This document shows, in pieces, positions 1 through 56,396 of a DNA stretch of 64,000 bases (positions are counted from its first letter, which is position 1; every line of letters begins with the position of its first letter). The position numbers and the translations under genes were made by a program. Origin of the DNA: Actinomycetota bacterium (GTDB lineage Bacteria > Actinomycetota > Aquicultoria > Aquicultorales > Aquicultoraceae); NCBI GenBank assembly GCA_018333515.1, contig JAGXSZ010000030.1:2501-66500 (forward strand). The letters run 5' to 3'. The notes below the pieces were generated by a model, which did no database searches, was not told where the DNA came from, and worked only from the letters and a program-made list of their open reading frames with translations.

Positions 1-2452
<2,452 letters not shown>

Positions 2453-3844: not shown

Positions 3845-3851
3845 GCATGTT

Positions 3852-3966
3852 TTCGGTGGCCATAGCGAGGGAGTAACACCCGTTCCCATTCCGAACACGG
3901 AAGTAAAGCCCCTCAGCGCCGACGGCACCGTTATGGCGGCGGGCGGGAGAGCAGGATGTCACTTTT
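3852..3966 (+). rRNA. Second 5S rRNA copy with divergent 3' half
   Basis: From about 3850 to 3920 it repeats the first 5S gene with a single difference (GGCC for GGCT). After CAGCGCC the sequence diverges (GACGGCACCGTTATGGCGGCG) although a similar hairpin and the GGGAGAGCAGGA element remain. GGTGGC can still pair with GTCACT near 3958-3963 (two G-U pairs), so helix I may form. No rRNA gene precedes it; it follows the toxin-antitoxin pair. It could be a functional variant or a chimera left by recombination. Confidence 0.7.
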
Positions 3967-3969
3967 GAT

Positions 3970-3992
3970 GTTCGAATCCTACCCGGGGAGCC
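3970..3992 (+). pseudogene. tRNA 3'-end-like remnant
   Basis: GTTCGAATCCTACC followed by CGGGGAGCC looks like the T-loop, T-stem 3' strand and acceptor 3' strand of a tRNA. The 5' strand of the T-stem is missing (TGATG does not pair with CCTAC), and no D or anticodon arm is upstream. It is therefore a fragment, possibly left by an integration or rearrangement that joined the second 5S copy to a tRNA end. Confidence 0.5.
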
Positions 3993-4011: not shown

Positions 4012-4701
4012 CTACCCCATCTGCGAGAGTTCTGCGACCCGCAGCGACCCGTCCTTTATCTCGTAGCACTGAGGCGCTCTTCGTGCGAGTTCCGATTTGT
4101 GGGTCACCAGCAGCAGGGTCAGACCTTCTTTGTTCAGGTCGAACAGGATGTCGCCGATTTGTTCGGCGCGCGGCGGGTCGAGGTCGTTGGTCGGCTCGTC
4201 GGCGAGGAGGATGGCGGGCTCGTTTATTAGCGCCCGCGCGATGGCGACGCGCCGTCTTTGGCCCAGGCTTAACTCGTGCGGCAGGTGTTTCAAGCGCTCG
4301 ACAAGACCGAATCGCTCGGCGAACTCATGCGCCCGCGCCCGCTTATCGCGGCCGCCGCGTCGCTTGTTCAACCACGCCGGCAGCAATATGTTTTCCAGGA
4401 CGGTCAGCGTTGGGATAAGGTGCGAGCCCTGGAAGATGAAGCCGATTCTCTCGTTGCGAAGGAGCGCGAGTTCTTTCTCGCCCATCGAAGGGATGAACGC
4501 GCCGTCGATAAAGACGTCGCCTCCGGTCGGCCTTAGCAGGCACCCGATGATGTTGAGCAAGGTCGTCTTGCCGCCCCCGGAGGAGCCGATAATAGATACC
4601 GCATCGCCTCCACCGATGCTAAGGTTTACGCCGGCCAATACCGGAAGGTCCCCGCCGCCGGGGCGCCGGTATGAGTGTCTGACATCGCGTAATTCGATCA
4701 T
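4012..4701 (-). CDS. ABC transporter ATP-binding protein, LolD/MacB type
   Basis: 229 residues with Walker A GSSGGGKTT at 39-47, a signature motif LSLGQRRR near 143, Walker B ILLADEPT near 165 and the switch histidine in LVTHKSE near 202. It belongs to the MacB/LolD/FtsE group that energises FtsX-type permeases rather than moving small substrates through a channel. The partner permease is the gene just upstream on the same strand (4810-6015), about 110 bases away. Substrate unknown: this group handles lipoproteins, peptides, cell-wall signals or cytoplasmic-membrane metal complexes. Confidence 0.9.
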   Translation of the reverse strand: MIELRDVRHSYRRPGGGDLPVLAGVNLSIGGGDAVSIIGSSGGGKTTLLNIIGCLLRPTGGDVFIDGAFIPSMGEKELALLRNERIGFIFQGSHLIPTLTVLENILLPAWLNKRRGGRDKRARAHEFAERFGLVERLKHLPHELSLGQRRRVAIARALINEPAILLADEPTNDLDPPRAEQIGDILFDLNKEGLTLLLVTHKSELARRAPQCYEIKDGSLRVAELSQMG

Positions 4702-4809: not shown

Positions 4810-6015
4810 TCACTCCAACTCTCCCTGGGCGATGGCGCGTGCCGGGTCGAGGGATGCCGAGCGGTATGCCGGAATGAGCGCCGAGAGCGTCACCGTTGCG
4901 ACTGCGGCCGCCAGGCATAATGCGTAGAGTCCCGCCGACTCCGTAAAAGATAGCGACAGGAACGGGAAGAGCGTGCCCTCCGTCGCCCACTCGCCCGCGC
5001 GCTGCGACACGAACCAGCCAAGGCCGATGCCGAACAACCCGCCGGCGACCGCCAAAAAGCCGCCCTCCCACAGGATGAGCCGGGCTACGCGCCCACGCAT
5101 CGCCCCGAGCGCGCGCATGATACCTATCTCGGTCTTTCGTTCGTTGACCAGGCTCGCAAACCGCCCCAGCAGCGCGACGAGCGCGACGAGCCACAGTACC
5201 GCCGTCAAAGCGTAGAGTAAGGTCGTTATTTTGCCCATCTGCTGCCGCGTGTCTCTCATGACATCGGCCGATACGATGGCGCGCACGCCGGGCAGTTCGT
5301 TTACGGCTTTTGCTACCAAGAAAGAACGCTTCGGGTCTTCAACGCGAATCAACACCGCCGAGAGCAGTTGCTCGGGGTTTCTGCCGACCCAGAGCGCCTT
5401 CAGGTCGGGGCTCTCAGCCGCCAGACTGCGCGCGGTGGCGAGCGGTATGAACGAAGAGTCATCCAGGCCGGTGCCGGTCGGCGCGAGTTGGCCGACCACA
5501 CGGAACATGCGCGCTCGAATTAAAAGCGTATCCCCGGTTTTGGCGCTGATTTTCGAGCCGACGATTATCTCTTGCTTGGCGAGCGGCCGCCCCAAGGAAT
5601 TACGCAGCCACGGGGTGACGGTAAAATCGGTTTCAGAATCTATGCCGATGACCCGCCCGGCCATCTTGAGACCGCATCACGGCGCGTCGGCGGTTCTGGT
5701 AAAGAATTGCGGGGTGGCTTGTTTTACGCCCCGTATCTTTCGTATGTCGGAGTAGGTCTTCTCACCCATGTACACATTTAAAGGCATTCCGGTAAAGAGC
5801 ATCTGCTCCGCCTTTAGCTCGATTTCTTCAGAGACCACAACGATGTCGGCGCCGAGCCGCTCTATTCCGACCCGCAGGCCGCGCTCCAGTCCCCGGCTCA
5901 ACCAGAGGGAGGTAAGTAGGGCCGCTACCGCTATCGCCACCGTAAAAATAGTGAGCACTGTATGAAAAGGACGGCGCTGAATGTTGCGTAAGACGACTAA
6001 GAACATATTTCTCAC
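4810..6015 (-). CDS. FtsX/MacB-type ABC permease with in-frame TGA; candidate selenoprotein
   Basis: Two reading segments (6015-5677 and 5664-4810) lie in one frame, separated only by TGA at 5679-5677 and four sense codons. Read through, they give a 401-residue permease of normal family length: N-terminal membrane helix (about 15-40), periplasmic MacB-like domain, and three C-terminal helices (about 255-390) of the FtsX core. The TGA is codon 113, in ADAP-U-CGLK just before RVIGID, inside the periplasmic domain. From memory, homologues often carry a Cys pair here, so U-C would replace C-C; this needs an alignment. A SECIS-like hairpin follows at the expected distance. Start ATG 6015 is preceded by GAAGAAGGTGAG. 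Alternative: a pseudogene with a point nonsense mutation, less likely because everything else is intact and TGA is flanked by coding sequence. Confidence 0.75.
5647..5679 (-). promoter_or_regulatory. Candidate bacterial SECIS element (TGA plus downstream hairpin)
   Basis: On the minus strand, TGA at 5679-5677 is followed by the stem GATGGCC/GGTCATC (7 pairs, one G-T) with loop GGGCG. The loop begins 18 bases after the TGA and starts with G. This fits the published bacterial SECIS model: apical loop 16-37 bases downstream and a G in the first two loop positions. Confidence 0.6.
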
Positions 6016-6328: not shown

Positions 6329-6667
6329 ATGCAAAGCTTACTACTTATTCTCAAGTCTTCTATGGAACAGGAGCAACACGCGCAATTTGTGTGGAATCTT
6401 GCTCAAGCGGCCGGAGCGAAGGGCCATCCCGTGGTCGTGCACATATTCGGCGACGGCATCTATAATTTGGTGCCCAACCTGAACGGCGTCGGGCCGGTCG
6501 GCGCGGTGGAGTCGGTCGGGGACGGAAACGTCCGCTTTATGTATTGCAACTTCAATGTTATTCAGCGAGGGCTCGAGGGTCAACTCGCGGCCGGGGCGAA
6601 GGCCTCCAACACGTCAGACGCGTCAATGGAAGTTCTAAGAAACGACCGGGTCCTTATGTTTTCGTAA
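6329..6667 (+). CDS. DsrE/DsrF-like protein (1 of 3)
   Basis: 112 residues with the DsrE-fold pattern: N-terminal strand LLLILKSS, then helix HAQFVWNLAQAA and a second strand VVVHIFGDGIYNL. DsrE/F/H (TusD/C/B) proteins carry sulfur as cysteine persulfides between enzymes in the cytoplasm. Only one Cys (YCNF) is visible and it is not in the classic DsrE position, so sulfur carriage is not assured. Start ATG 6329 has AGGAGGG 8 bases upstream; the longer frame from 6275 lacks a ribosome site. First gene after the promoter at 6046 and head of a run of three related genes. Confidence 0.75.
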   Translation: MQSLLLILKSSMEQEQHAQFVWNLAQAAGAKGHPVVVHIFGDGIYNLVPNLNGVGPVGAVESVGDGNVRFMYCNFNVIQRGLEGQLAAGAKASNTSDASMEVLRNDRVLMFS

Positions 6668-6700
6668 CCCGGCAGAGATTTTTCAAGGTGGGTGAATGTC

Positions 6701-7069
6701 TTGTCAGAACCGATGAAATTTTGCGCGGTAGTGCGCCAACCCCCAGTCGGCTCCAGGGAATCGCTAGAGATGCTCCGCTTTTCTTTTGGTATGGTCCTCC
6801 TCGGAGACGTTGCGCAGATTCACGTTGTCTTAGAGGGCGACGGTGTCTTTAATGCGCTAAGCGGTGCGCCGCTTAAGGCTATGGAGCGAGAGACGGCCCG
6901 ATATTATGTGGATGATTGTATAGACTTCGATGTTCTCATGTATGCCGTTAAGGAAGACCTCGACGCGCGTGGCCTGAAACAGGAAGACCTCGTCGACGGC
7001 GTCCAGACGATAGATATAAGCCGGGTAGCGGAGTTGGTCGGAGGCGCCGACGTAGTGCATTTTCTGTAA
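6701..7069 (+). CDS. DsrE-like protein (2 of 3)
   Basis: About 122 residues. The region FCAVVRQPP, then FSFGMVLLGDVAQIHVVLEGDGVFNAL, matches the DsrE/DsrF fold (nucleotide-like binding alpha/beta with a GDGV turn). Two internal Cys residues are seen (FCAV and VDDCIDF), the second in the middle where some members carry the active Cys. TTG 6701 is chosen because AAGGTGGG lies 8 bases upstream; GTG 6692 or ATG 6713 are alternatives. It lies 33 bases after the first DsrE gene and 28 before the third, so the three are co-transcribed, as DsrEFH or TusDCB trios are. Confidence 0.7.
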   Translation: MSEPMKFCAVVRQPPVGSRESLEMLRFSFGMVLLGDVAQIHVVLEGDGVFNALSGAPLKAMERETARYYVDDCIDFDVLMYAVKEDLDARGLKQEDLVDGVQTIDISRVAELVGGADVVHFL

Positions 7070-7097
7070 TTCGAGCAACGAGAGGAGGAATGACCAA

Positions 7098-7415
7098 ATG
7101 GCAACATTATGCATCAGCGCCCTGTCGCCGGGCGCCGTCCAGCGCCACGACCGTCTGCTTGAGATAACGCGCGGGCTTGCCGAAAACGGCGAGAAAGTCG
7201 ATTTTGTCTTTTACGGCAGCGGCCTCTACAGCCTCGTGGAAGGCAGCAAATCGGCGGAGGCTTTGGCTTCGTCGGGTGCATCGATTTATGCGGTCGCCGA
7301 TGACGTCGAAAATCGGGGGCTTGCGGGTCGGTTGATAGCGCAGGCGGACTTGGTCGGCTACGACAAGATCGTCGACATGATAATGGAGGCTGACCGGACG
7401 ATTACCGGCATTTAA
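7098..7415 (+). CDS. DsrE/DsrH-like protein (3 of 3)
   Basis: 105 residues: LCISALSPGAVQRHDRLLEITRGLAENGEKVDFVFYGSGLYSL resembles the DsrE/TusB fold, with a short C-terminal domain (DLVGYDKIVDMIMEAD). The only Cys is in LCIS near the N terminus. GAGGAGG is 10 bases before ATG 7098. Closing gene of the DsrE-like trio. Whether the trio forms an alpha2beta2gamma2 complex like DsrEFH is inferred from gene number and order only. Confidence 0.72.
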   Translation: MATLCISALSPGAVQRHDRLLEITRGLAENGEKVDFVFYGSGLYSLVEGSKSAEALASSGASIYAVADDVENRGLAGRLIAQADLVGYDKIVDMIMEADRTITGI

Positions 7416-7657
7416 TCGGCAAAATAGCCGGGGGCCGCCGGCGCCAAACGGACAATCGGCACCAGCGCCAGGCGCGCGTCCGGTGGGTTTTAATAGAGTT
7501 AACAGCATGCACAATGTCGGGGAGGAGGGTCGTTAACCTAGTTGGACAAGGTGTGGAAGGCAAGGATTCGGGGACAGTATTAACTCAACGCCGGCCGAAA
7601 ACAATAAATCAATCAAGCAAGGCTTGGCGTGTGATGACATCTAAAGGAGTGGATGAT

Positions 7658-8881
7658 GTGCTAAAACGAAGAGAACTCAGTGTGGTGCTACTGGTATTGC
7701 TGGTTGCGCTCGCGCTGGTCGCGGCGGGATGCGGGGGTTCGCAAACGGCTGTCGACAAGAAAGACGCGGCCGCCCCGGCGGCAGAGCCGGAAAGCAAAGC
7801 CGTCGCGGCGGGCACCGCGTACGTCGCCGGCATGGGCGGCCATCTCGCCAAGGTCGATTTCGAAATAGACCCGACCGACACCGACGAGCCGATTAAAGTT
7901 TTGGAGCTGGACAAGCTCCGCCTCGGAAAAGCCGAAAGCTACGGGACCCATGATGCCAGAATCGACCACGAACGGGGCGTTCTTTATTCGGCCGCTTTTG
8001 TTCGCAATCCCGACGGCAAGGTCAACGTAGTAAGCGTTGATTTAGGCACCGGCAAGGTAAAGAAAGACGTCGCGCTCGATATCAGTGCCAGATATATCGA
8101 CGGTCCGCTCTACTGCGCCTCGGGCCAGAGCAAAGACGCGTTTATTCCGGTACTCATGGGATACGAGGGCTACATCGATGTAATCGATAAGGATTCGCTC
8201 GAGTTGAAACACAGGGTATACCTCGACCACCCGGAGCTTCCCAAGGAGTATATGTGGGGACACGGAGTCAACACTCCCGATATGAAAAGCTTTCTCTTGA
8301 CCATCAACAGCACGACACCGGAGCGTGCAGGCAAGGGTCTGCCGAGAGGCAACGAGGATGTCCTTTTCTACTTGCTCGACATGGAACAACTGCTCCAGGG
8401 CAAGCTGCAAATCACCAAGAAAAGCGCTATCAAGGGCGACCCGGGCAAGACCGCGTCGCTCAGGCAGCACTATACGCATGACGGCAAATACCTCATCCAA
8501 ACCGTACGCGACAGAATGTGGATAATCGATGCCGAGACGTTGCAACTTGTCCATGAAGAAAAATTCCCGGTCGACGAGGCGATAGAAATCACCGACAAAG
8601 ACGCGGCCACCGGAGCGCCGATAGTCAAGAAGGCGCAGCTCGAGGTACATGACGCAATCGCTACCAAGGATGACAAGTACGCGATATTGACGATGCGCGT
8701 CCCGTTTAAGGGTGGCGAGAAAGAGGCGGCCATGGATGGAAGCTTGTTACTCTTCGACCTCGAAAACAAGAAGGTCATAGGCAAGCCGGTCTCGGTGTGT
8801 CGAAGCTGCCACGCCGATGAGCCCGATTTGAAAGACGCAACATCCAAACTTTGCGGTCTCGACGTAGTGTGGAAGAAGTAG
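7658..8881 (+). CDS. Beta-propeller-like lipoprotein with C-terminal c-type haem motif
   Basis: 407 residues from GTG 7658, which has AAAGGAG 8 bases upstream; this start gives a signal peptide with lipobox LVAAG-C25, so the protein should be lipid-anchored outside the membrane. The body has repeated WD/YVTN-like strands (VLYSAAFV, DGKYLIQTV, DKYAILTMRV) typical of seven-bladed propellers. CRSCH at residues 381-385 would bind one c-type haem near the C terminus, a layout seen in periplasmic electron-transfer or reductase-like propellers. It ends with a strong terminator and follows the DsrE trio by 240 bases. The substrate is not recognisable. The longer frame from 7514 lacks a ribosome site and would bury the signal peptide. 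Confidence 0.8.
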   Translation: MLKRRELSVVLLVLLVALALVAAGCGGSQTAVDKKDAAAPAAEPESKAVAAGTAYVAGMGGHLAKVDFEIDPTDTDEPIKVLELDKLRLGKAESYGTHDARIDHERGVLYSAAFVRNPDGKVNVVSVDLGTGKVKKDVALDISARYIDGPLYCASGQSKDAFIPVLMGYEGYIDVIDKDSLELKHRVYLDHPELPKEYMWGHGVNTPDMKSFLLTINSTTPERAGKGLPRGNEDVLFYLLDMEQLLQGKLQITKKSAIKGDPGKTASLRQHYTHDGKYLIQTVRDRMWIIDAETLQLVHEEKFPVDEAIEITDKDAATGAPIVKKAQLEVHDAIATKDDKYAILTMRVPFKGGEKEAAMDGSLLLFDLENKKVIGKPVSVCRSCHADEPDLKDATSKLCGLDVVWKK

Positions 8882-8927
8882 GCTTGCGAATATAACGGGC
8901 AAGCATGGATTCGGCCTCCTTCAAGGC

Positions 8928-8970
8928 GCCCTCCCTGGGTCACAACGACCCAGGGAGGGCTTATATAAAA
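8928..8970 (+). terminator. Rho-independent terminator after the haem lipoprotein
   Basis: Perfect 13-base stem GCCCTCCCTGGGT/ACCCAGGGAGGGC with loop CACAACG (8928-8960), followed by TTATATAAAAAA. It separates the lipoprotein from the glycosyltransferase. Confidence 0.85.
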
Positions 8971-8995
8971 AATGTGCGAACGAGGTTTTGAGCGA

Positions 8996-10780
8996 ATGCA
9001 AAACGTAGGCGTTTCATGGACCACTCCAAGCAGGCATATAGGTTTTGTCACGGTCACACTGCTGGCGGTAGGAGTTTTTCTATTGCTCGCGGCACACAGG
9101 GGGCTGGATAATAACTCGCTGGTATCATGGCGCTGGGTCTTTGCGCTGGTAAGCCCGGGCAGTCTGCTGCTACCTATTTGTTTGCTAATCGCCGGTGCTT
9201 ATTGGTATGTGAAGCGCTTTGATTATGAGCGGTATGAGGCATCCCTGCTCTTCGTTGTCTCGTTTGCGGCGGGCGCGCTCTTTTGGCGGACACCCGAGGT
9301 CATAGTCGACGCTTCGAGGTATTTCACTCAGGCGAAGCATCTCGAACTCTACGGTGTCGGGTATTTCCTCAGGGAGTGGGGCTTAAATATTTTCGCATGG
9401 ACCGATTTACCGCTCATCCCGTTTGTCTACGGCGTGATCTTTAAGGTCTTCGGCGAGTCGAGGCTGTACATCCAGGCCTTTACGACCATACTTTATGCTT
9501 TGACGGTCGTTCTGACATACCGGGTCGGGAAGATGCTCTGGGATAAGAGCACCGGTTTTTTGGGTGGGCTGCTATTGCTCGGTATGCCGTATTTGTTTAC
9601 GCAGGTGCCGTTGATGCTCGTCGATATTCCGGCGATGTTCTTTCTGATGCTCGCCGTCTTCTTGTTTATCAAGGCATTGACGCAGGGCGGCACGGCCCTT
9701 ATCGTTCTCTCGGCTGCGGCTATCTGGGCGGCGGTTCTGACGAAGTATTCAAACGTTTTGATGTTGTCGGTTCTACCCGTTGCGCTCGCCGTCTTTCTCG
9801 CCGTCAAGCGAAGCGGAGGCGAGGTGTTGCCGGGTTGGTCGAGGAGCACGGCGCCCGGTTGGCGCGAGATGCTCTTTCGGGGTATGGCCGTGGCGTTGGT
9901 CGCGTCCGCGCTTATAGGGGTCGCCGTTGCTTGGAAATACGATATCTTCGCGGCTCAGGTCGGTTTGCTCATGGACTACCAGCGCCCTGGGCTTAAGCGG
10001 TGGGGCGAAAGCCATCTGTCGACGTTTCTCTTTCAAGTACATCCGTTTATCACCGGCGCGGCGCTTTTATCGGTGTACGCCGCCGTTAGAAAGAGGGATT
10101 TAAAGTTTGTGGTCGTCGGCTGGCTGGTTTTGTTGGTGTTGCTCCTGCAAATCGAGAGAATTCGCTACATGATAAGCGTTTTTCCGATGCTCGCGCTTAT
10201 GGCCGCGTACGGGCTGCGGGAGATTAAGAGCGCGGAGTTAAGGCGCTATGTCGCGTTTTGCGCGGTGGCGTCGTCGCTGGCAATCGGGCTGTTTGCGTAT
10301 TTGCCGTTCATGGAGCGGATAAGCGCCGTAAACCTCAAAGACGCCGGAGAATATCTAAATTCTTCCGGCGCGAGGAATATCAGGGTCGTGACGACGTCGG
10401 CGGGCGATGCGCCCGAGGTCAATCCGGCGGTGGCGGTGCCCCTTCTCGACCTCTTTGCGGACGGGGCCATCGTATACGATTCGAGCCCCGCGCGGTCATT
10501 GCCGGAATCGATTTCGACATCATCGTTGCGGTTTACCTGGGAGCACAAGAGCCCGGAGTATTACTCGGGGGGGCAAAGCGGCGGTGATCAAGTGGTCGTG
10601 GTCATCTCCGAAGAAAAAGGTCGGTCCCTAACTGATGCCGCGGGCCGCGGGCTCGAAGGGTATCGTCGCACTAAGACATTTGATGATGGAGTAGGGTTTT
10701 TCCGCTACCAAACCGTCGTTACGGTTTATGAACCGTTAAGCATGGCGAGCGACGCGAGACCGGCGGCGTTTGCGAAATAA
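8996..10780 (+). CDS. Membrane glycosyltransferase, PMT/ArnT (GT39/GT83) type
   Basis: About 594 residues with roughly ten to twelve hydrophobic helices in the N-terminal two thirds and a soluble C-terminal part. The sequence EVIVDASRYFTQAKHLELYG in the first outer loop holds the acidic residue pattern (D-ARY-QAK) of polyprenyl-phosphate sugar transferases that glycosylate proteins or lipids outside the membrane. Acceptor and sugar cannot be told. Start ATG 8996 or 8972. It stands alone between a terminator and the transporter gene, which has its own ribosome site. Confidence 0.78.
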   Translation: MQNVGVSWTTPSRHIGFVTVTLLAVGVFLLLAAHRGLDNNSLVSWRWVFALVSPGSLLLPICLLIAGAYWYVKRFDYERYEASLLFVVSFAAGALFWRTPEVIVDASRYFTQAKHLELYGVGYFLREWGLNIFAWTDLPLIPFVYGVIFKVFGESRLYIQAFTTILYALTVVLTYRVGKMLWDKSTGFLGGLLLLGMPYLFTQVPLMLVDIPAMFFLMLAVFLFIKALTQGGTALIVLSAAAIWAAVLTKYSNVLMLSVLPVALAVFLAVKRSGGEVLPGWSRSTAPGWREMLFRGMAVALVASALIGVAVAWKYDIFAAQVGLLMDYQRPGLKRWGESHLSTFLFQVHPFITGAALLSVYAAVRKRDLKFVVVGWLVLLVLLLQIERIRYMISVFPMLALMAAYGLREIKSAELRRYVAFCAVASSLAIGLFAYLPFMERISAVNLKDAGEYLNSSGARNIRVVTTSAGDAPEVNPAVAVPLLDLFADGAIVYDSSPARSLPESISTSSLRFTWEHKSPEYYSGGQSGGDQVVVVISEEKGRSLTDAAGRGLEGYRRTKTFDDGVGFFRYQTVVTVYEPLSMASDARPAAFAK

Positions 10781-10827
10781 AGAAGTGCGGTTGTAGGTTA
10801 CTAGTTTTGAAGGAGGGATATTAGGGC

Positions 10828-12249
10828 GTGGAAACGACGAGCAAAAGTAATTTGTATTGGGCATATTTTATCTTGGGGCTGCTGGCGCTAGTGAGCATAG
10901 TCTTCACTCAGGCGCATGTGTACTATGTCTACCTGGTAGCATATATTTGGTTTGGGGTTGCCTACGGAATGCTCCTCCAGTACGGCAGGTTCTGCATCGC
11001 ATCGGCCTCGCGGGATTTGTTTGCTACGGGTGTGCCGAGGATGGCCGTGGTCGTCTTAGTCACACTCGTTTTTCTCAGCGTAGTGCAGGCGGCGTTAGCG
11101 GCCGCCGGTATGACCAGCCCGTTTTTCCAGGCGACACCGGTCGGGTTTCACCTGGTAGTCGCGGGCCTCATCTTCGGTTTCGGTATGGTTATCGCCGGCG
11201 GTTGCGCTACCGGCTCTGTGTATAAGATAGGAGAAGGTCACGGCACGTCTATTCTGGCGGTAGTGGCGCTCGTCTTCGGGCAAGCGGTCTTTGTCACCAC
11301 CGGCGGGTTTTTCAATCGATTTCTGCCTCAATCTTGGGTCGACTCGGCGGCTACGAAAACATGGGTGCCTAGCGACAAACTGACATCATGGTACGACACC
11401 TATCTCGTCGGCTATGTCTTCGATAAACCGAGCATCCAGCTCTCTCAGACAAGCTTTGTTTCAGAGAATTTTCCTGGAGTTGCGCGCTTTTTTGTCGGCG
11501 ATGCGCTTATTAACACCATGATTCCCGCCGCGCTGCTTCTCGTTGTCATCTATGTCTTCTTTGGCAGAAAAGGCTTTATTAAGAAGCGCAAAAAAGCTCA
11601 AGGAACGGTCGGGTTCAAAGACGAACTCGCCGGCATGTGGAACATGCTTACGGCGTCGAAGCGGACCATGAAAGTCGGCATGTTGATAGCGCTGACGATA
11701 GGTCTGCAGGTCATAGTCGCAAAGGGTCTGCATGTCAAATTCGGTGTCAACAACTTCGGCGAACTCCTTGCCAAGATGGGACATACGGCCGACTTGACCC
11801 CCGCCGGCAAGATCTTCGACCCCGGTTACTGGTTTATGACCACCCAGCAGTCGCAACTCGGTGCTTGGGTGCTCGGCAAAGTCGGCTTAAATATGCAGGA
11901 TAACGTCTTTTTGGGTGTCCTAAGCGGTCTGCCGGCACCTTGGCGCAACCCGGCGCTTTGGATGACCGGGGGGATTATCTTAGGGGCGATGGTTACGGCG
12001 CTGATAAACAGGGAGTTCAAATTCAACCTGCCAAAAGGTGAACTCATTGTATGGGGACTTGTCGGCGGCTTGCTTCTTGGAATCGGCGCGAGGCTCGGCC
12101 TCGGCTGCGCGGGCGCGTTCTTCGTCCGTATCGCGGGCGGAGATTTTGGCGCCTGGATGTTTTTCCTGAGTATGGTCGGAGGCGCCTACATCGGGGTTCT
12201 GTTCTTCAATTGGTGGACCGACCGGAAAATGGCAAAAGAGATGGGCTAG
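10828..12249 (+). CDS. YeeE/YedE-family transporter (thiosulfate/sulfur-type)
   Basis: 473 residues, about ten to twelve membrane helices arranged as two YeeE/YedE halves. Conserved motifs are GRFCIASASRDLF (near 54), GGCATGSVYKIGEGH (near 130) and GLGCAGAFFVRIAGG near the C terminus; the Cys residues in such motifs relay thiosulfate in characterised TsuA. The next gene is a TusA sulfurtransferase, as in tsuAB pairs, so uptake of thiosulfate or a related sulfur or selenium species is likely. GTG 10828 follows AAGGAGGG by 10 bases. A second, selenium-type YedE lies at 19960. Confidence 0.9.
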   Translation: METTSKSNLYWAYFILGLLALVSIVFTQAHVYYVYLVAYIWFGVAYGMLLQYGRFCIASASRDLFATGVPRMAVVVLVTLVFLSVVQAALAAAGMTSPFFQATPVGFHLVVAGLIFGFGMVIAGGCATGSVYKIGEGHGTSILAVVALVFGQAVFVTTGGFFNRFLPQSWVDSAATKTWVPSDKLTSWYDTYLVGYVFDKPSIQLSQTSFVSENFPGVARFFVGDALINTMIPAALLLVVIYVFFGRKGFIKKRKKAQGTVGFKDELAGMWNMLTASKRTMKVGMLIALTIGLQVIVAKGLHVKFGVNNFGELLAKMGHTADLTPAGKIFDPGYWFMTTQQSQLGAWVLGKVGLNMQDNVFLGVLSGLPAPWRNPALWMTGGIILGAMVTALINREFKFNLPKGELIVWGLVGGLLLGIGARLGLGCAGAFFVRIAGGDFGAWMFFLSMVGGAYIGVLFFNWWTDRKMAKEMG

Positions 12250-12381
12250 CCCGGGTTTTAGCGGATATCGCGGTTGGCCGCGGTGGCTTGGGGGGGGTGA
12301 AGCCCTCGACGCATACGGCTCAACCGATATGCGGCGTACCGATAGATGGGAAATTTTTAGACTACGAAGGAGGAAGAAGAA

Positions 12382-12633
12382 ATGGCGATGAAGTTTGACA
12401 AAACAGGTGATGGTGTATACACGCTCGATGTTTGCGGCTATGTCTGCCCGCATCCGCAGATATACACGAAAAAGTCGCTGGAGAAGATAGCCGAAGGAGA
12501 GGTTTTGGAGGTAGTCTTCGACAACGCGTCCTCGGCCGAGACGATAGTGCAAATGTGCGACCAGGACGGGCACGAGGTAATCGAGAACGCGCAAGGCGAC
12601 GGCAAGTTTGTAATCAAAATCGAAAAAGGTTAA
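12382..12633 (+). CDS. TusA-family sulfurtransferase (TsuB-like)
   Basis: 83 residues with the TusA signature CGYVCPHPQIYTKKSLEKI at about 17-35; C21 in VCP is the expected persulfide-carrying Cys. A further Cys is in VQMCDQDG. The protein should accept sulfur from the YeeE-type transporter encoded upstream. GAAGGAGGAAG lies 6-10 bases before ATG 12382. The 132-base gap after the transporter holds no gene and no evident terminator. Confidence 0.92.
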   Translation: MAMKFDKTGDGVYTLDVCGYVCPHPQIYTKKSLEKIAEGEVLEVVFDNASSAETIVQMCDQDGHEVIENAQGDGKFVIKIEKG

Positions 12634-12651
12634 GCGAAGGGGTGGTGTGCT

Positions 12652-13086
12652 GTGTCTGCTGAGTCGAAACGTAACGCGCCGCTTATGTTTGCAACCACCT
12701 TTGTGGCCTTGATTCTCGTTTCCCTGCTGGGCTACAGTTTTTCCGGGATGCATGCGGCAGATGTCGCCGCGTCCGGTATGTCGCCGGCCGGTGCTAAAAA
12801 GCCCGCCGCCGACGGAAAAGCGGTCTCTTCTCAAGCCGACCCGGACGAGGCGTCAAATATCTGCAGTATGTGTGGCATGGAGGACTGCAAGATGGGCTGT
12901 GAAGCGAAAGCTGCAGCAGCCGCTGACGGGGACAAAGACGAGCCTCGCGAAGAGTGCCTGTGCGAAGATGCCGACGCCAAGTCGGGCTCGACATCGAGTG
13001 ATGATGCACCAAAACCGGCACCAAAGCCCGAAGAACCGGCGAAAGCTTCCGGGTCGGGCGCCGCTGCGCCGGGGTACGGAAATTAA
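12652..13086 (+). CDS. Small membrane-anchored Cys-rich protein
   Basis: 144 residues. One N-terminal membrane helix or uncleaved signal (about 12-30) is followed by a polar, low-complexity Ala/Lys/Asp-rich segment. Two Cys clusters, CSMCGMEDCKMGC and a later ECLCEDAD, could bind a metal or an iron-sulfur cluster, or carry thiols. No family recognised. The gene starts 18 bases after the TusA gene (GTG 12652 with AAGGGG upstream), so it belongs to the sulfur-transport operon. Confidence 0.7.
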   Translation: MSAESKRNAPLMFATTFVALILVSLLGYSFSGMHAADVAASGMSPAGAKKPAADGKAVSSQADPDEASNICSMCGMEDCKMGCEAKAAAAADGDKDEPREECLCEDADAKSGSTSSDDAPKPAPKPEEPAKASGSGAAAPGYGN

Positions 13087-13174
13087 TGGGTTTCTGATTA
13101 AAGCGACGGTGAAAGAGGCGGCGGTTTGGCGATGAGTGATGAGCGATGAGAATCGATAAAACGGGTGGTCCCCT

Positions 13175-14671
13175 ATGAAATGCGCCCTTCTGATCCCGCC
13201 GTGGACGCCGACCGATATATTTCCCGCTAAGACGGCCGGGTCGCAGGTAAATTATTGGCAGCCGTTGGGCACGCTCTATGTCGCCGCCGGCCTGCGGCTG
13301 GCCGGCCATGAGGTCAAGCTCTTTGACGGCGCGTTCCTGGCCCGCGACGAGATGCTGGCCGAGGTGGAGTCGTTCGCGCCGCGTTTCGCGGGCATCTATT
13401 CGACGGCCTTTAGCTGGGTCGGAGCGAAGAGGCTCGCCGCCGCGATCAAGGGGCTGGATGAGCGGATATTTACTTGTATCGGCGGCCCGTATCCGATTGC
13501 GGCGCGGGAAAAGTGCCTTGCCGATGATGTGGAGCATGTTGTCGACGCCGTCGTAACCGGGGAGGGTGAGATAACCGTCCCCGAGATGGTCCGCGCGCTC
13601 GAACTGGGAGCGGGCCTTACGGGCGTCGCCGGAGTCGTCTTCCGCGACGGGGACGGTGTTGTAGCCAACGACGCCCGCCCGCTCGTCGACAACCTCGATT
13701 CGCTGCCTTTTCCGGCAAGGGAAGTCCTGGGCGACGCGGGTCTCTATCTCCCGCCGCCGGCGACTTACCGGAGACAACCGGTCGCGGTTATGCTGACGTC
13801 ACGCGGGTGCAACCGCCGCTGTATATACTGCTTTCAGTTGGATAAGGACAGGGACAGCGGTATACGCTATCGCGGCGTCGAAAACGTCCTGGCCGAAATC
13901 GAGCTGTGCCTGGAGCAGGGCTATAGGGAGATAAAATTTATCGACGACACCTTCGCCGCCGATTACGGGCGCGCGCTTCGTATTGCGCGGGAGATCAAGG
14001 CTAGGCGCCTCGATTTCACCTGGTTTGTGTCGGCCTGCGTCAACCAGGTCGACAAAGAGTTGCTCCAAGCCTTTAAGGACGCGGGGTGTTGGGCGATTTT
14101 GCTCGGAGCCGAAAGCGGTGTCCAGAAGAACCTCAATACCATAAAAAAAGGAATAACCCTCGATCAGACGCGGCAAGCGGTCGCGGCGGCGAAAGCGGTC
14201 GGGCTAAAGGTCATAACGCCGTTCATCTTCGGTATCCCCGGCGAGAGCTTCGAGGACGGCCTTAAGACGATAGAATTCGCCTGCGAACTCGACGCGGATG
14301 TCGCGAATTTTCACGCCATCACGCCGTTTCCGGGGACGGAATTATACGATAACGCCGCGAAATATGGAGCCGTCTCGGATGAGCTTACCGACTACACCTA
14401 TCAGGGGGCGGCGTTCGTGCCGTACACCATGAGCAGGGATGAGATAGTCGAGCTTCGCGCGACGGCCTTTCGCACCTTCTATTCGAGGCCCAAATTTTTA
14501 TTGCGGAGGGCGCTCGCGACCAGAAATATCCACGACCTCAAAGCCGCTTGTGCCGGCGCTAAGAGCCTATTTTGGCTCTGGGCCGATTCGCATGCGCTGG
14601 ATAAGCGCGCATCAGCCGGGAAGCCTGCGACCGGCGGCAAGAGGGCTAGCACAAAGAAAGGTTGGTGTTAA
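13175..14671 (+). CDS. B12-binding domain radical SAM protein
   Basis: 498 residues. The N-terminal part (about 1-140) has the layout of a cobalamin-binding domain: LLIPPW, then GTLYVAAGLRLAGHEVKLFDG and later VVTGEGEITVPEMV. The radical SAM domain carries the cluster motif SRGCNRRCIYCFQ (CX3CX2C) near residue 212 and FIFGIPGES. Members catalyse radical methylations or ring changes on lipids, cofactors or peptides; the substrate is not evident. Followed after one base by a cytochrome gene and then by a glycosyltransferase and a second radical SAM gene, all in one direction. Confidence 0.9.
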   Translation: MKCALLIPPWTPTDIFPAKTAGSQVNYWQPLGTLYVAAGLRLAGHEVKLFDGAFLARDEMLAEVESFAPRFAGIYSTAFSWVGAKRLAAAIKGLDERIFTCIGGPYPIAAREKCLADDVEHVVDAVVTGEGEITVPEMVRALELGAGLTGVAGVVFRDGDGVVANDARPLVDNLDSLPFPAREVLGDAGLYLPPPATYRRQPVAVMLTSRGCNRRCIYCFQLDKDRDSGIRYRGVENVLAEIELCLEQGYREIKFIDDTFAADYGRALRIAREIKARRLDFTWFVSACVNQVDKELLQAFKDAGCWAILLGAESGVQKNLNTIKKGITLDQTRQAVAAAKAVGLKVITPFIFGIPGESFEDGLKTIEFACELDADVANFHAITPFPGTELYDNAAKYGAVSDELTDYTYQGAAFVPYTMSRDEIVELRATAFRTFYSRPKFLLRRALATRNIHDLKAACAGAKSLFWLWADSHALDKRASAGKPATGGKRASTKKGWC

Positions 14672-36058: not shown

Positions 36059-36774
36059 CGATAGAGGTAAAAGACCTTTACAAGATATATTCTCTCGAAG
36101 GCGTCGAGATACACGCGGTAAACGGGATAACGTTGACTATAGAAGACGGCGAATTCGTCTCGATTATGGGACAATCGGGCTCGGGCAAATCGACCTTGAT
36201 GCATATCATAGGATGTCTCGACAAGCCGACCAGCGGCTCGGCCAAGATAGACGGGCAAGAGATAACAGACCTTACCGAGAATGAGCTGGCCGACTTCAGG
36301 CTCGACAAAATAGGTTTTGTCTTTCAAACCTTCAACCTCATGCCGCGCGCGTCCGCGCTAAAAAACGTCGAACTGCCGCTTATATACGCCGGCGTGAGCC
36401 GCGCGGAACGGCGCGAGCGCGCCGTCAAGATGCTCGAGTCGGTGGGCCTCGGCGACCGCCTCGGCAGTCGTCCCACCCAGCTCTCCGGCGGCCAGCAACA
36501 GCGGGTCGCAATCGCGCGCGCTTTGATAAACGACCCGAAAATAATCTTTGCGGACGAGCCGACCGGCAACCTCGACTCCAAATCCGGCACCGAGATAATG
36601 GCCATACTCGATTCGCTTCACAGGCAGGGCAAGACGGTCATCCTCGTCACGCACGAGGCCGAGGTGGCCGAGCACGCGAACCGGCTAATCCGTCTACTCG
36701 ACGGCAAGGTCATCGAAGACGGCCCCATTAAAGCCAACAACACAGGTGGGAAGCGTAAAAATGAACTTGTTTGA
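36055..36774 (+). CDS. MacB-type ABC ATP-binding protein
   Basis: 239 residues: Walker [10 protein letters not shown] near 40, signature [15 protein letters not shown] near 143, Walker [14 protein letters not shown] near 162, and switch histidine in [12 protein letters not shown] MacB/LolD-type ATPase. It overlaps both neighbours (4 bases with the adaptor gene, 14 with the permease gene), so the three are translationally coupled. Confidence 0.92.
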
Positions 36775-54443: not shown

Positions 54444-56396
54444 GTGCATATGTATATGAAAACCGAGCGGCTCAAGACCATTGTATCGGCACCAAACTAT
54501 GACATTATCGCAGTGTTTTGCGGCGCTATCGCAGTATTGGCGATTCTGAGTACGCTGTTTCTAAAAGAGAGCCCATACCTCAAAGTCTCTACTTCAGGTC
54601 TTCCTCTATTAGCGGTCATTTCCAACGTCGACATAATCGCATTGGGAATGGTCGCCATATCGATATTGTGGGTCTTCCTCTTATTTAAAACTATCTATAG
54701 CAAGGCCAAGAAAGAGGCATGCAGGCGAGAGAAAGAGCTAGAGGCGCTCAATGAAGTCGCGCTCGCCGTAGGCCGGTCGCTCGACCTTGACAAGGTACTC
54801 GATAATGCATTGAAGTCGGTCGTCAAGATAGGAAACTTCGATGTCGGCTTCGTCTATCTCTTAAATCAAGACAAGAATGTGCTGGAAATAGCGGCAGCTT
54901 ATGGAGAAATCCCAAAGACGCTCGCCGCCAAGCTCTCGACGCTTCACCTCGGGCAAGAGGTCTGAGGTGTGGTCGTCAAAGAAGACCGGTCGGTCTATCT
55001 GGAGAACCTGGAAAATGACCCCGTCGGCTCCCAATCGGAAGTCGTTGTCGCGCTCGGTATTAAGTCTGTCGCCGGGACACCCCTTCGATATGAAGGAAAA
55101 GTCGTTGGAGCGCTTACCGTAGGCAAGACCTATGCGTCGAAGATTGCCGCTGAGGATATCGCGCTCATCGGCTACATGGCTAACCAGATCACAACCGCAA
55201 CCGTAAAAGCTCAGCTCTACAAGCAAGAGCATGAAGCACGAGTACGCTTAGGCGCCCTTGAGAATATTGCGAAAACCGGGCTGAAAATCGTCGGTATCGA
55301 TGACCTAATAGATCAAATCAAAGAACGGATCATCGAGTCTACCGGAATGAGTTGGGGCGCGATAATCCTTCTCAATAGCTGTGGCGGGTATCCTGTAGTC
55401 GAGCACGCGTCAAGCGGTTGCAATATGCTCAAAGGGCGTAACCTAGTAGAGGATTTCGGGCTTATCAACGAGATACTGGAGGTGGGCGAGACGCGCATCG
55501 TCAAGAAATCCGAGTTCGGCGGCGAAGAATACGGTTTCGTCGATAAGAAAATCAAGAGCATAGCAATGATACCCATTGCCTTGCAGCGGAATCGCGCTTG
55601 CATTATAGCATTGGGTAAAGATGATTGGATAACTTTTGAAGCGCACGAGATAGACTTCATCGAAGCTTTGGCCCACCGGGCTATGCTGGCAATCGAGAAT
55701 TCACTCCTGTTTAGTAAGCTCGAGCGCTCTTATCTGGAAACCATCGAGTCGCTCGCAAAAGCGGTCGAAGCGAAAGATCAATATACGTGCGGGCACTCCG
55801 AAGAGGTCGCAGTAATCTCAAAGGCGATTGCGCTCGCGATGGGCATAGATGAAGCGCGGGCCGAGAAGGTTCATGCGGCAGGCTTACTCCATGACGTAGG
55901 CAAAATCGGCATATCGAGCAAGATTCTATATAAGGCAGCCTGTTTGAACTGCGATGAGTATGCCGAGATTAAACTCCACCCGTTGAAGGGATATCAAATA
56001 TTGAAACCGCTCGCCGATTTCGAAGACCTCGCCAACATCGTCCTCCAGCACCACGAGCGCTATGACGGTTGTGGATACCCCTATGGCATAAGCGGTGAGG
56101 GTATTCTTATTCAAGCCAGAATACTAGCCGTGGCCGACGCGTACCAGGCGATGACTTCGGAAAGGCCGTATCGCGAGCCTCTACCCTGCGAACAGGCTAT
56201 AGCCGAGATAAGAAAGGGGTCGGGCAGCCAGTTCGACCCGCTCGTCGCCGAAGTGTTTATCGCCCTCTTTGAAAGTGGCGAGCTTCCTCAGGCCCCCCAG
56301 AGAAGGGATACCTGTAGCGTCGAGATGTGCAAGAAAGCTTCGGATGAAGGACGCGATTGCGCGAGAAACGGTTGCACGGGCTTCGAAGTCGCTTGA
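54444..56396 (+). CDS. GAF/HD-GYP protein with in-frame TGA; candidate selenoprotein
   Basis: Two same-frame segments (54444-54965, 54969-56396) are divided by one TGA at 54963-54965. Read through, 650 residues: two helices (about 20-85), GAF domain 1 with the TGA at codon 174 in LGQEV-U-GVVVKED, where other GAF domains have a small residue (LGEG-AG pattern), GAF domain 2, and HD-GYP (CGHSEEVAVISKA, LLHDVGKIGIS, HHERYDGCGYPYG), then a Cys-rich tail (CSVEMCKK, DCARNGCTG). A SECIS-like hairpin follows the TGA. A nonsense mutation is the alternative, but GAF 1 is otherwise whole. The start may be ATG 54450 or 54456. HD-GYP degrades cyclic di-GMP. Confidence 0.7.
54963..54996 (+). promoter_or_regulatory. 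Candidate bacterial SECIS element in GAF/HD-GYP gene
   Basis: After TGA 54963-54965, stem AGACC/GGTCT (54983-54987 and 54992-54996) closes a GGTC loop at 54988-54991. The loop begins 22 bases after the TGA and starts with GG. GGUC is also in the apical loop of the E. coli fdhF SECIS. Confidence 0.6.

Follow-up and report, generated by a model that had tools for sequence, protein, structure and literature searches.

Can an in-frame TGA be read as selenocysteine (Sec) in an ABC permease? This question is raised by one gene of the window, the whole stretch of 64,000 nucleotides that was analysed. The gene encodes an FtsX/MacB-type ABC permease, a candidate selenoprotein, on the minus strand at 4810-6015, and comprises 401 codons including one TGA that would have to be read through. 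Its frame starts with GTG at 6015 and ends with a terminal TGA at 4812-4810, and the sole interruption is the TGA at 5679-5677 (codon 113), the proposed Sec codon, which is followed by a TGC at 5674-5676 encoding Cys114, the second residue of the putative U-C pair. The predicted peptide around the site reads TRTADAP-U-C-GLKMAGRVIG. The first-pass annotation had described the permease as a single frame broken only by TGA, and this description holds for the minus strand from 6015 to 4810. Two Pfam matches exceed their cut-offs, MacB_PCD at residues 19-239 (9e-15) and FtsX at residues 270-391 (3e-16), and the former runs across codon 113. With MacB_PCD, a C-terminal FtsX domain, a LolC/MacB-like fold and a partner ATPase, the protein meets the criteria for a type VII (FtsX/MacB-type) permease.

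Our reading is that the internal stop codon is very probably read as Sec, as judged from sequence evidence in the absence of expression data. We assign a probability of about 85% to the full reading, in which SelB and tRNA-Sec would decode UGA codon 113 with the help of a SECIS hairpin 18 nt further on, yielding a full-length permease that would work with the LolD-like ATPase encoded at 4012-4701. Sec would then take the place of the first Cys in a vicinal Cys-Cys (CC) pair of a flexible periplasmic loop, forming a Sec-Cys pair. What the sequence itself demonstrates is the frame, the pairing of Sec with Cys, a hairpin of SECIS type, the machinery for Sec and, before as well as after the TGA, purifying selection. 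The selenoprotein proposed in the first-pass annotation has thus gained support from the Cys of homologues at the site, the sel genes, the UGA-containing selD and fdhA genes and the bSECIS hairpin.

Probable decoding of UGA as Sec in the source genome

The genome was checked for selA, selB, selC and selD, as had been proposed, and all four are present, clustered on a contig (C23) apart from that of the window. Of these, selB, selC (tRNA-Sec) and selD were identified by model (SelD, 364 bits; cut-off, 125), and selA was identified by sequence reading and by its position beside selB. The selD gene itself carries an in-frame UGA (KSG-U-AAKMGPG), and fdhA, encoding the formate dehydrogenase alpha subunit on another contig (C19), has one in-frame TGA, in DHCARL-U-HS. 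Given the sel cluster and these two UGA-containing genes, both of which code for ordinary selenoproteins, the bacterium almost certainly decodes UGA as Sec, as far as gene content can tell.

The same observations bear on the idea that the TGA is read as some other amino acid, through genome-wide recoding or suppression. Nothing except the open frame favours it, and we give it next to no weight: many genes of the window end in TGA, the residue aligned with the TGA is Cys, and tRNA-Sec, SelA, SelB and SelD are all present. The earlier statement that TGA serves as an ordinary stop in neighbouring genes agrees with open reading frames that end with TGA at 36774, 54341 and 56396.

Cysteine homologues and the SECIS-type hairpin

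A scan of GTDB species genomes yielded 80 loci, of which about 55 were assigned to a CC permease subfamily with members in Actinomycetota, Nitrospirota, Desulfobacterota, Bacillota, Gilliamella and archaea. Nearly all of the roughly 55 subfamily homologues checked carry CC at this place in the periplasmic loop, the TGA occupying the position of the first Cys; the second, Cys114, is invariant in alignments of 20 and 43 sequences. Whether related permeases have Cys at codon 113 had been named as a check on the Sec reading, and this check was passed, the CC aligned with the TGA being essentially invariant. The motif is absent from the more distant FtsX paralogues compared. The three nearest homologues (L007, L008 and L009, with identities of 63, 60 and 59%) belong to the same family but to other genera, and they have TGC-TGC or TGC-TGT at the site as against TGA-TGC in the permease. 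The tree places the Sec form as sister of three Cys forms and nests it among Cys forms, so that a replacement of Cys by Sec is simpler to assume than the reverse. The Cys-form permeases (e.g. L007-L011 and L061-L114) belong to the same family and share the loop and the partner ATPase with the Sec form, but they have Cys at the first position, and a bSECIS-like hairpin is found at the site in only two of 59 Cys homologue records, being missing from the other 57.

Both halves of the permease appear equally constrained, with no relaxation past the TGA, which fits a full-length protein: conserved sites are changed at 19% upstream and 22% downstream of the TGA, and nonsynonymous change downstream of it amounts to 0.26-0.30 against a saturated synonymous 0.80-0.85. 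This comparison is blind to a very recent change. No second TGA-bearing homologue was found among matches of comparable strength in about 1,400 distinct genomes (relatives and phylum samples of the source genome, G400, G397/G1193 and G398, covering four phyla) or in the 80 named loci, and none of roughly 100 further homologues has TGA at the site. Other stops flagged in homologues proved to be gene ends or an unrelated TAG. The permease gene is missing from the three genomes of the same genus. Conservation of the UGA across more than one species, a supporting criterion that is not strictly required, is therefore not met.

Since the TGA is seen in one genome only, we retain a base-calling error or a fresh nonsense mutation as an unlikely rival that is not strictly excluded. 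A change from TGC to TGA, which takes a single base, would make the gene either a young pseudogene or really an intact Cys-Cys permease, and the genomes of the same genus, being without the gene, leave room for it. Against this stand the absence of any frameshift or relaxation downstream of the TGA, the complete Sec machinery and a matching SECIS geometry.

The hairpin, GATGGCC-GGGCG-GGTCATC at 5647-5665 on the minus strand, starts 14 nt into the stretch that begins with the TGA and has seven pairs including one G-U, a 5-nt loop and an energy of -9.6 kcal/mol for the hairpin alone, with 18 nt between the TGA and the loop. Published bSECIS limits are a loop of 3-9 nt, a stem of 4-16 bp, a spacing of 16-37 nt and at most -7.5 kcal/mol, and the model also requires a G within the first two loop positions (PMC13188914). 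The permease hairpin satisfies all four published bSECIS rules, and the earlier description of a 7-bp hairpin with a GGGCG loop 18 bases past the TGA, within the SECIS window, stands up to these limits. The SECIS elements of the same genome offer a further comparison. That of fdhA has a spacing of 18 and a 5-nt loop starting with GG, as in the permease, on a 5-bp rather than a 7-bp stem, and TGGCCGG lies at the identical offset in both hairpins; that of selD has a spacing of 17 and a 3-nt loop.

How often would such a hairpin arise by chance? Among in-frame codons of the long open reading frames of the window, 4.8% are followed by a bSECIS-type hairpin and 1.8% by one as stable as that of the permease, and synonymous recoding of the permease peptide gives 5.6% and 1.8%, respectively. 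With chance odds of 2-5%, the hairpin by itself is only moderately significant. When fdhA-like geometry is applied without an energy limit, 0.5% of codons pass as against 24% of the synonymous recodings of the permease peptide, because the peptide AGRV favours GGCCGG codons. We accordingly rejected the hairpin as a proof standing alone, both for the 2-5% and for the 24% that fit the looser geometry. Across the window, 24 frames contain a TGA flanked on either side by 60 or more open codons, and the strict hairpin filter is passed by two of them, that of the permease and an antisense frame close to the rRNA region.

For the mutation or error explanation, these odds of 2-5% come on top of another coincidence, namely that a stop could arise in the permease gene through 113 different single-base changes, only two of which would fall on the CC pair. 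Moreover, the residues at the 5' arm of the hairpin are KM in the TGA-bearing permease and VS or YS in the orthologues, a departure that, judged on the aligned residues, is in the direction a SECIS would need. We estimate the joint probability of coincidence to be of the order of 1 in 1000 or less, with the sel genes left out of account.

Predicted fold, gene neighbourhood and a possible function

An AlphaFold model based on 43 sequences has a mean pLDDT of 87 and a LolC/LolE/MacB-like fold. Strands 97-107 and 121-125 flank the loop that holds residues 113-114, a block of low confidence (mean pLDDT 56), and the Sec-Cys pair is accordingly predicted by the model to sit in a loop of the periplasmic domain. 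The best fold matches are the solved structures of LolC/LolE and MacB (Foldseek E 1e-18 to 1e-16, 16-19% identity); the permease scores far under the NCBIfam cut-offs for both LolCE (40.6 of 362 bits) and MacB (23.7 of 966 bits). The fold also bears on whether the TGA is a true stop, which would leave an N-terminal piece of 112 aa and a piece of 284 aa restarted at the ATG at 5664. Such an ATG does exist, 12 nt past the TGA, but it has no preceding Shine-Dalgarno-like stretch, the gene would be cut within the part that encodes the periplasmic domain, separating strands that are adjacent in the predicted fold, and no homologue was found split at that site. We consider a true stop very improbable and keep to the full-length, Sec-containing permease in what follows.

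Next downstream of the permease and in the same operon lies the gene for an ABC ATPase of the LolD/MacB type (4012-4701, minus strand), and an ATPase of this type adjoins the CC permease in most homologous loci. On the other side, a divergent cluster at 6329-14671 (plus strand) holds three DsrE-type genes, a CxxCH lipoprotein gene, a YeeE/YedE gene, a TusA/YedF-like gene and a gene for a B12-binding radical SAM protein. It opens with a DsrE-family protein (6329-6667), followed by a DsrE/DsrH (TusB/C-like) protein (6713-7069), a DsrH (TusB-like) protein (7098-7415) and a putative lipoprotein with a C-terminal CxxCH (7514-8881, start codon uncertain). The last has homologues among the beta-propeller proteins encoded ahead of the CC permease in Nitrospirota and Desulfobacterota, with E-values of 3e-119 to the copy in G007, a genome of another genus, and 1e-68 to Desulfobulbaceae copies. 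Further along come a YeeE/YedE-family membrane protein (10828-12249) and a TusA/YedF-like sulfurtransferase (12382-12633). The Cys orthologue of G007 (TGC-TGC) stands in the same divergent arrangement as the Sec form, the two genomes having in common the three DsrE-type genes, the CxxCH lipoprotein, a 600-aa membrane protein and YedE. Gene order from DsrE to YedE is identical between the two.

The first-pass annotation had taken the yedE and YedF-like genes as part of a selenium gene set, an interpretation that did not survive comparison with NCBIfam, where both score far below the selenium-specific cut-offs. A selenium role for these adjacent genes was rejected on that basis, and the divergent cluster looks like a sulfur relay rather than selenium metabolism.

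Near CC permeases of other organisms we found genes for NosL, PCu(A)C, DUF4418, FtrD-like and CxxCH beta-propeller proteins as well as YedE, the last in nine other loci; multicopper-oxidase-like sequences also occur there, as judged by eye only. The neighbours NosL, PCuAC, FtrD-like and DUF4418 suggest copper/iron or thiol handling. Sec usually marks the reactive atom of its protein, and its presence here would single out the conserved CC pair as the functional site of these permeases. We infer, from neighbourhood and analogy only, a redox or metal transport step with Sec-Cys as its putative reactive site, which would exchange electrons or bind a soft metal. Movement of the periplasmic domain, driven by ATP, might then power a hand-over based on thiol redox or on a soft metal (Cu(I)/Fe). 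Put as a whole, the permease may represent a new selenoprotein family of the mechanotransmission type, with a Sec-Cys pair in its periplasmic loop and an ATP-driven relay that passes electrons or soft metal ions (Cu(I), Fe) along the membrane or across it; the Cys-Cys forms of other phyla would act likewise with thiols. This proposal is tentative, and we hold it with less than even confidence.

Among the closest known systems is FetBCD, a putative ABC transporter of the fetMP-fetABCDEF iron cluster in Campylobacter jejuni, whose ABC permeases are likewise tied to thiol redox and the uptake of iron. When iron is limiting, Campylobacter needs FetBCD in order to grow, and a supply of reducing power has been proposed as its role (PMC10783030). 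A Gilliamella cluster has a CC permease with its own ATPase beside FtrD-like, FetB-like, FetC-like and FetD-like genes. Its FetB/FetC-like permeases are distinct and lack the CC motif, the CC permease being a separate, additional module, so that we rejected identity of the CC permease with FetB or FetC; FetB/C-type permeases are relatives of it, not identical with it. FetA (FtrD-like) and a second permease are not found beside the Sec permease, and such a set lies on another contig of the same genome (C31:64000-78000, locus L183 of G000). This locus encodes a CopA-like P-type ATPase, a CsoR-like repressor and an FtrD-like (DUF2318) protein together with an ABC ATPase and two FtsX permeases without CC (FetB-like/FetC-like), forming a second metal cluster. 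Elsewhere, CC modules, which often include DUF4418 and an ATPase of their own, stand beside CC-less FtsX permeases (L058/L106, L096, L104/L105 and L074/L084/L089). This pairing suggests two cooperating transporters in one metal system.

Among catalogued selenoproteins, SaoP (NF040733) is the one ABC permease subunit and is predicted to belong to a metal-related system (PMC13188914). The candidate resembles it in being a putative Sec-containing ABC permease subunit in such a system; the permease gave no match to the NF040733 model at E<=0.001. An FtsX/MacB-type permease is missing from this 2026 catalogue of prokaryotic selenoproteins (PMC13188914), and a text search of the literature for selenoproteins with FtsX returned nothing relevant, unpublished database annotations being outside its scope. 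The permease belongs to a known family, of which it would be a Sec form and the first selenium-containing transporter. CC permeases are widespread and unexplained, and in several phyla they have copper and iron genes as neighbours. Their role, including the cargo of ABC transporters in iron clusters of the fetABCDEF type, becomes testable by a one-residue change.

A second candidate gene and other features of the window

A further gene, at 54444-56396 on the plus strand, encodes a membrane/GAF/GAF/HD-GYP signalling protein and has an in-frame TGA at 54963-54965, within the first GAF domain, which Pfam reads straight through. Its orthologue in another genus (L055, 1119-3026, plus strand; 50% identity) has TGA at the same codon. 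In distant solved homologues the residue shown at this site is Ala, Thr or Val, not Cys. A hairpin at 54983-54996 has 5 bp, a GGTC loop and a spacing of 22 nt, and the orthologue has the same SECIS-like hairpin. The hairpin of the window gene failed the contiguous-stem energy filter but reaches about -10 kcal/mol once its outer pairs are included. Both genes use identical codons (CGG TCG GTC) beneath the hairpin, although only 37% of codons for identical residues agree. On these comparisons the gene looks like a second new selenoprotein candidate, conserved in two genera, unlike the TGA of the permease. Judged by eye only, the window also contains an apparent rRNA region, with a LAGLIDADG-endonuclease-like sequence (GWVIGFVDGEGCFSIGF) in the open reading frame at 858-1409 (plus strand), and a 5S-rRNA-like stretch near 3850-3970.
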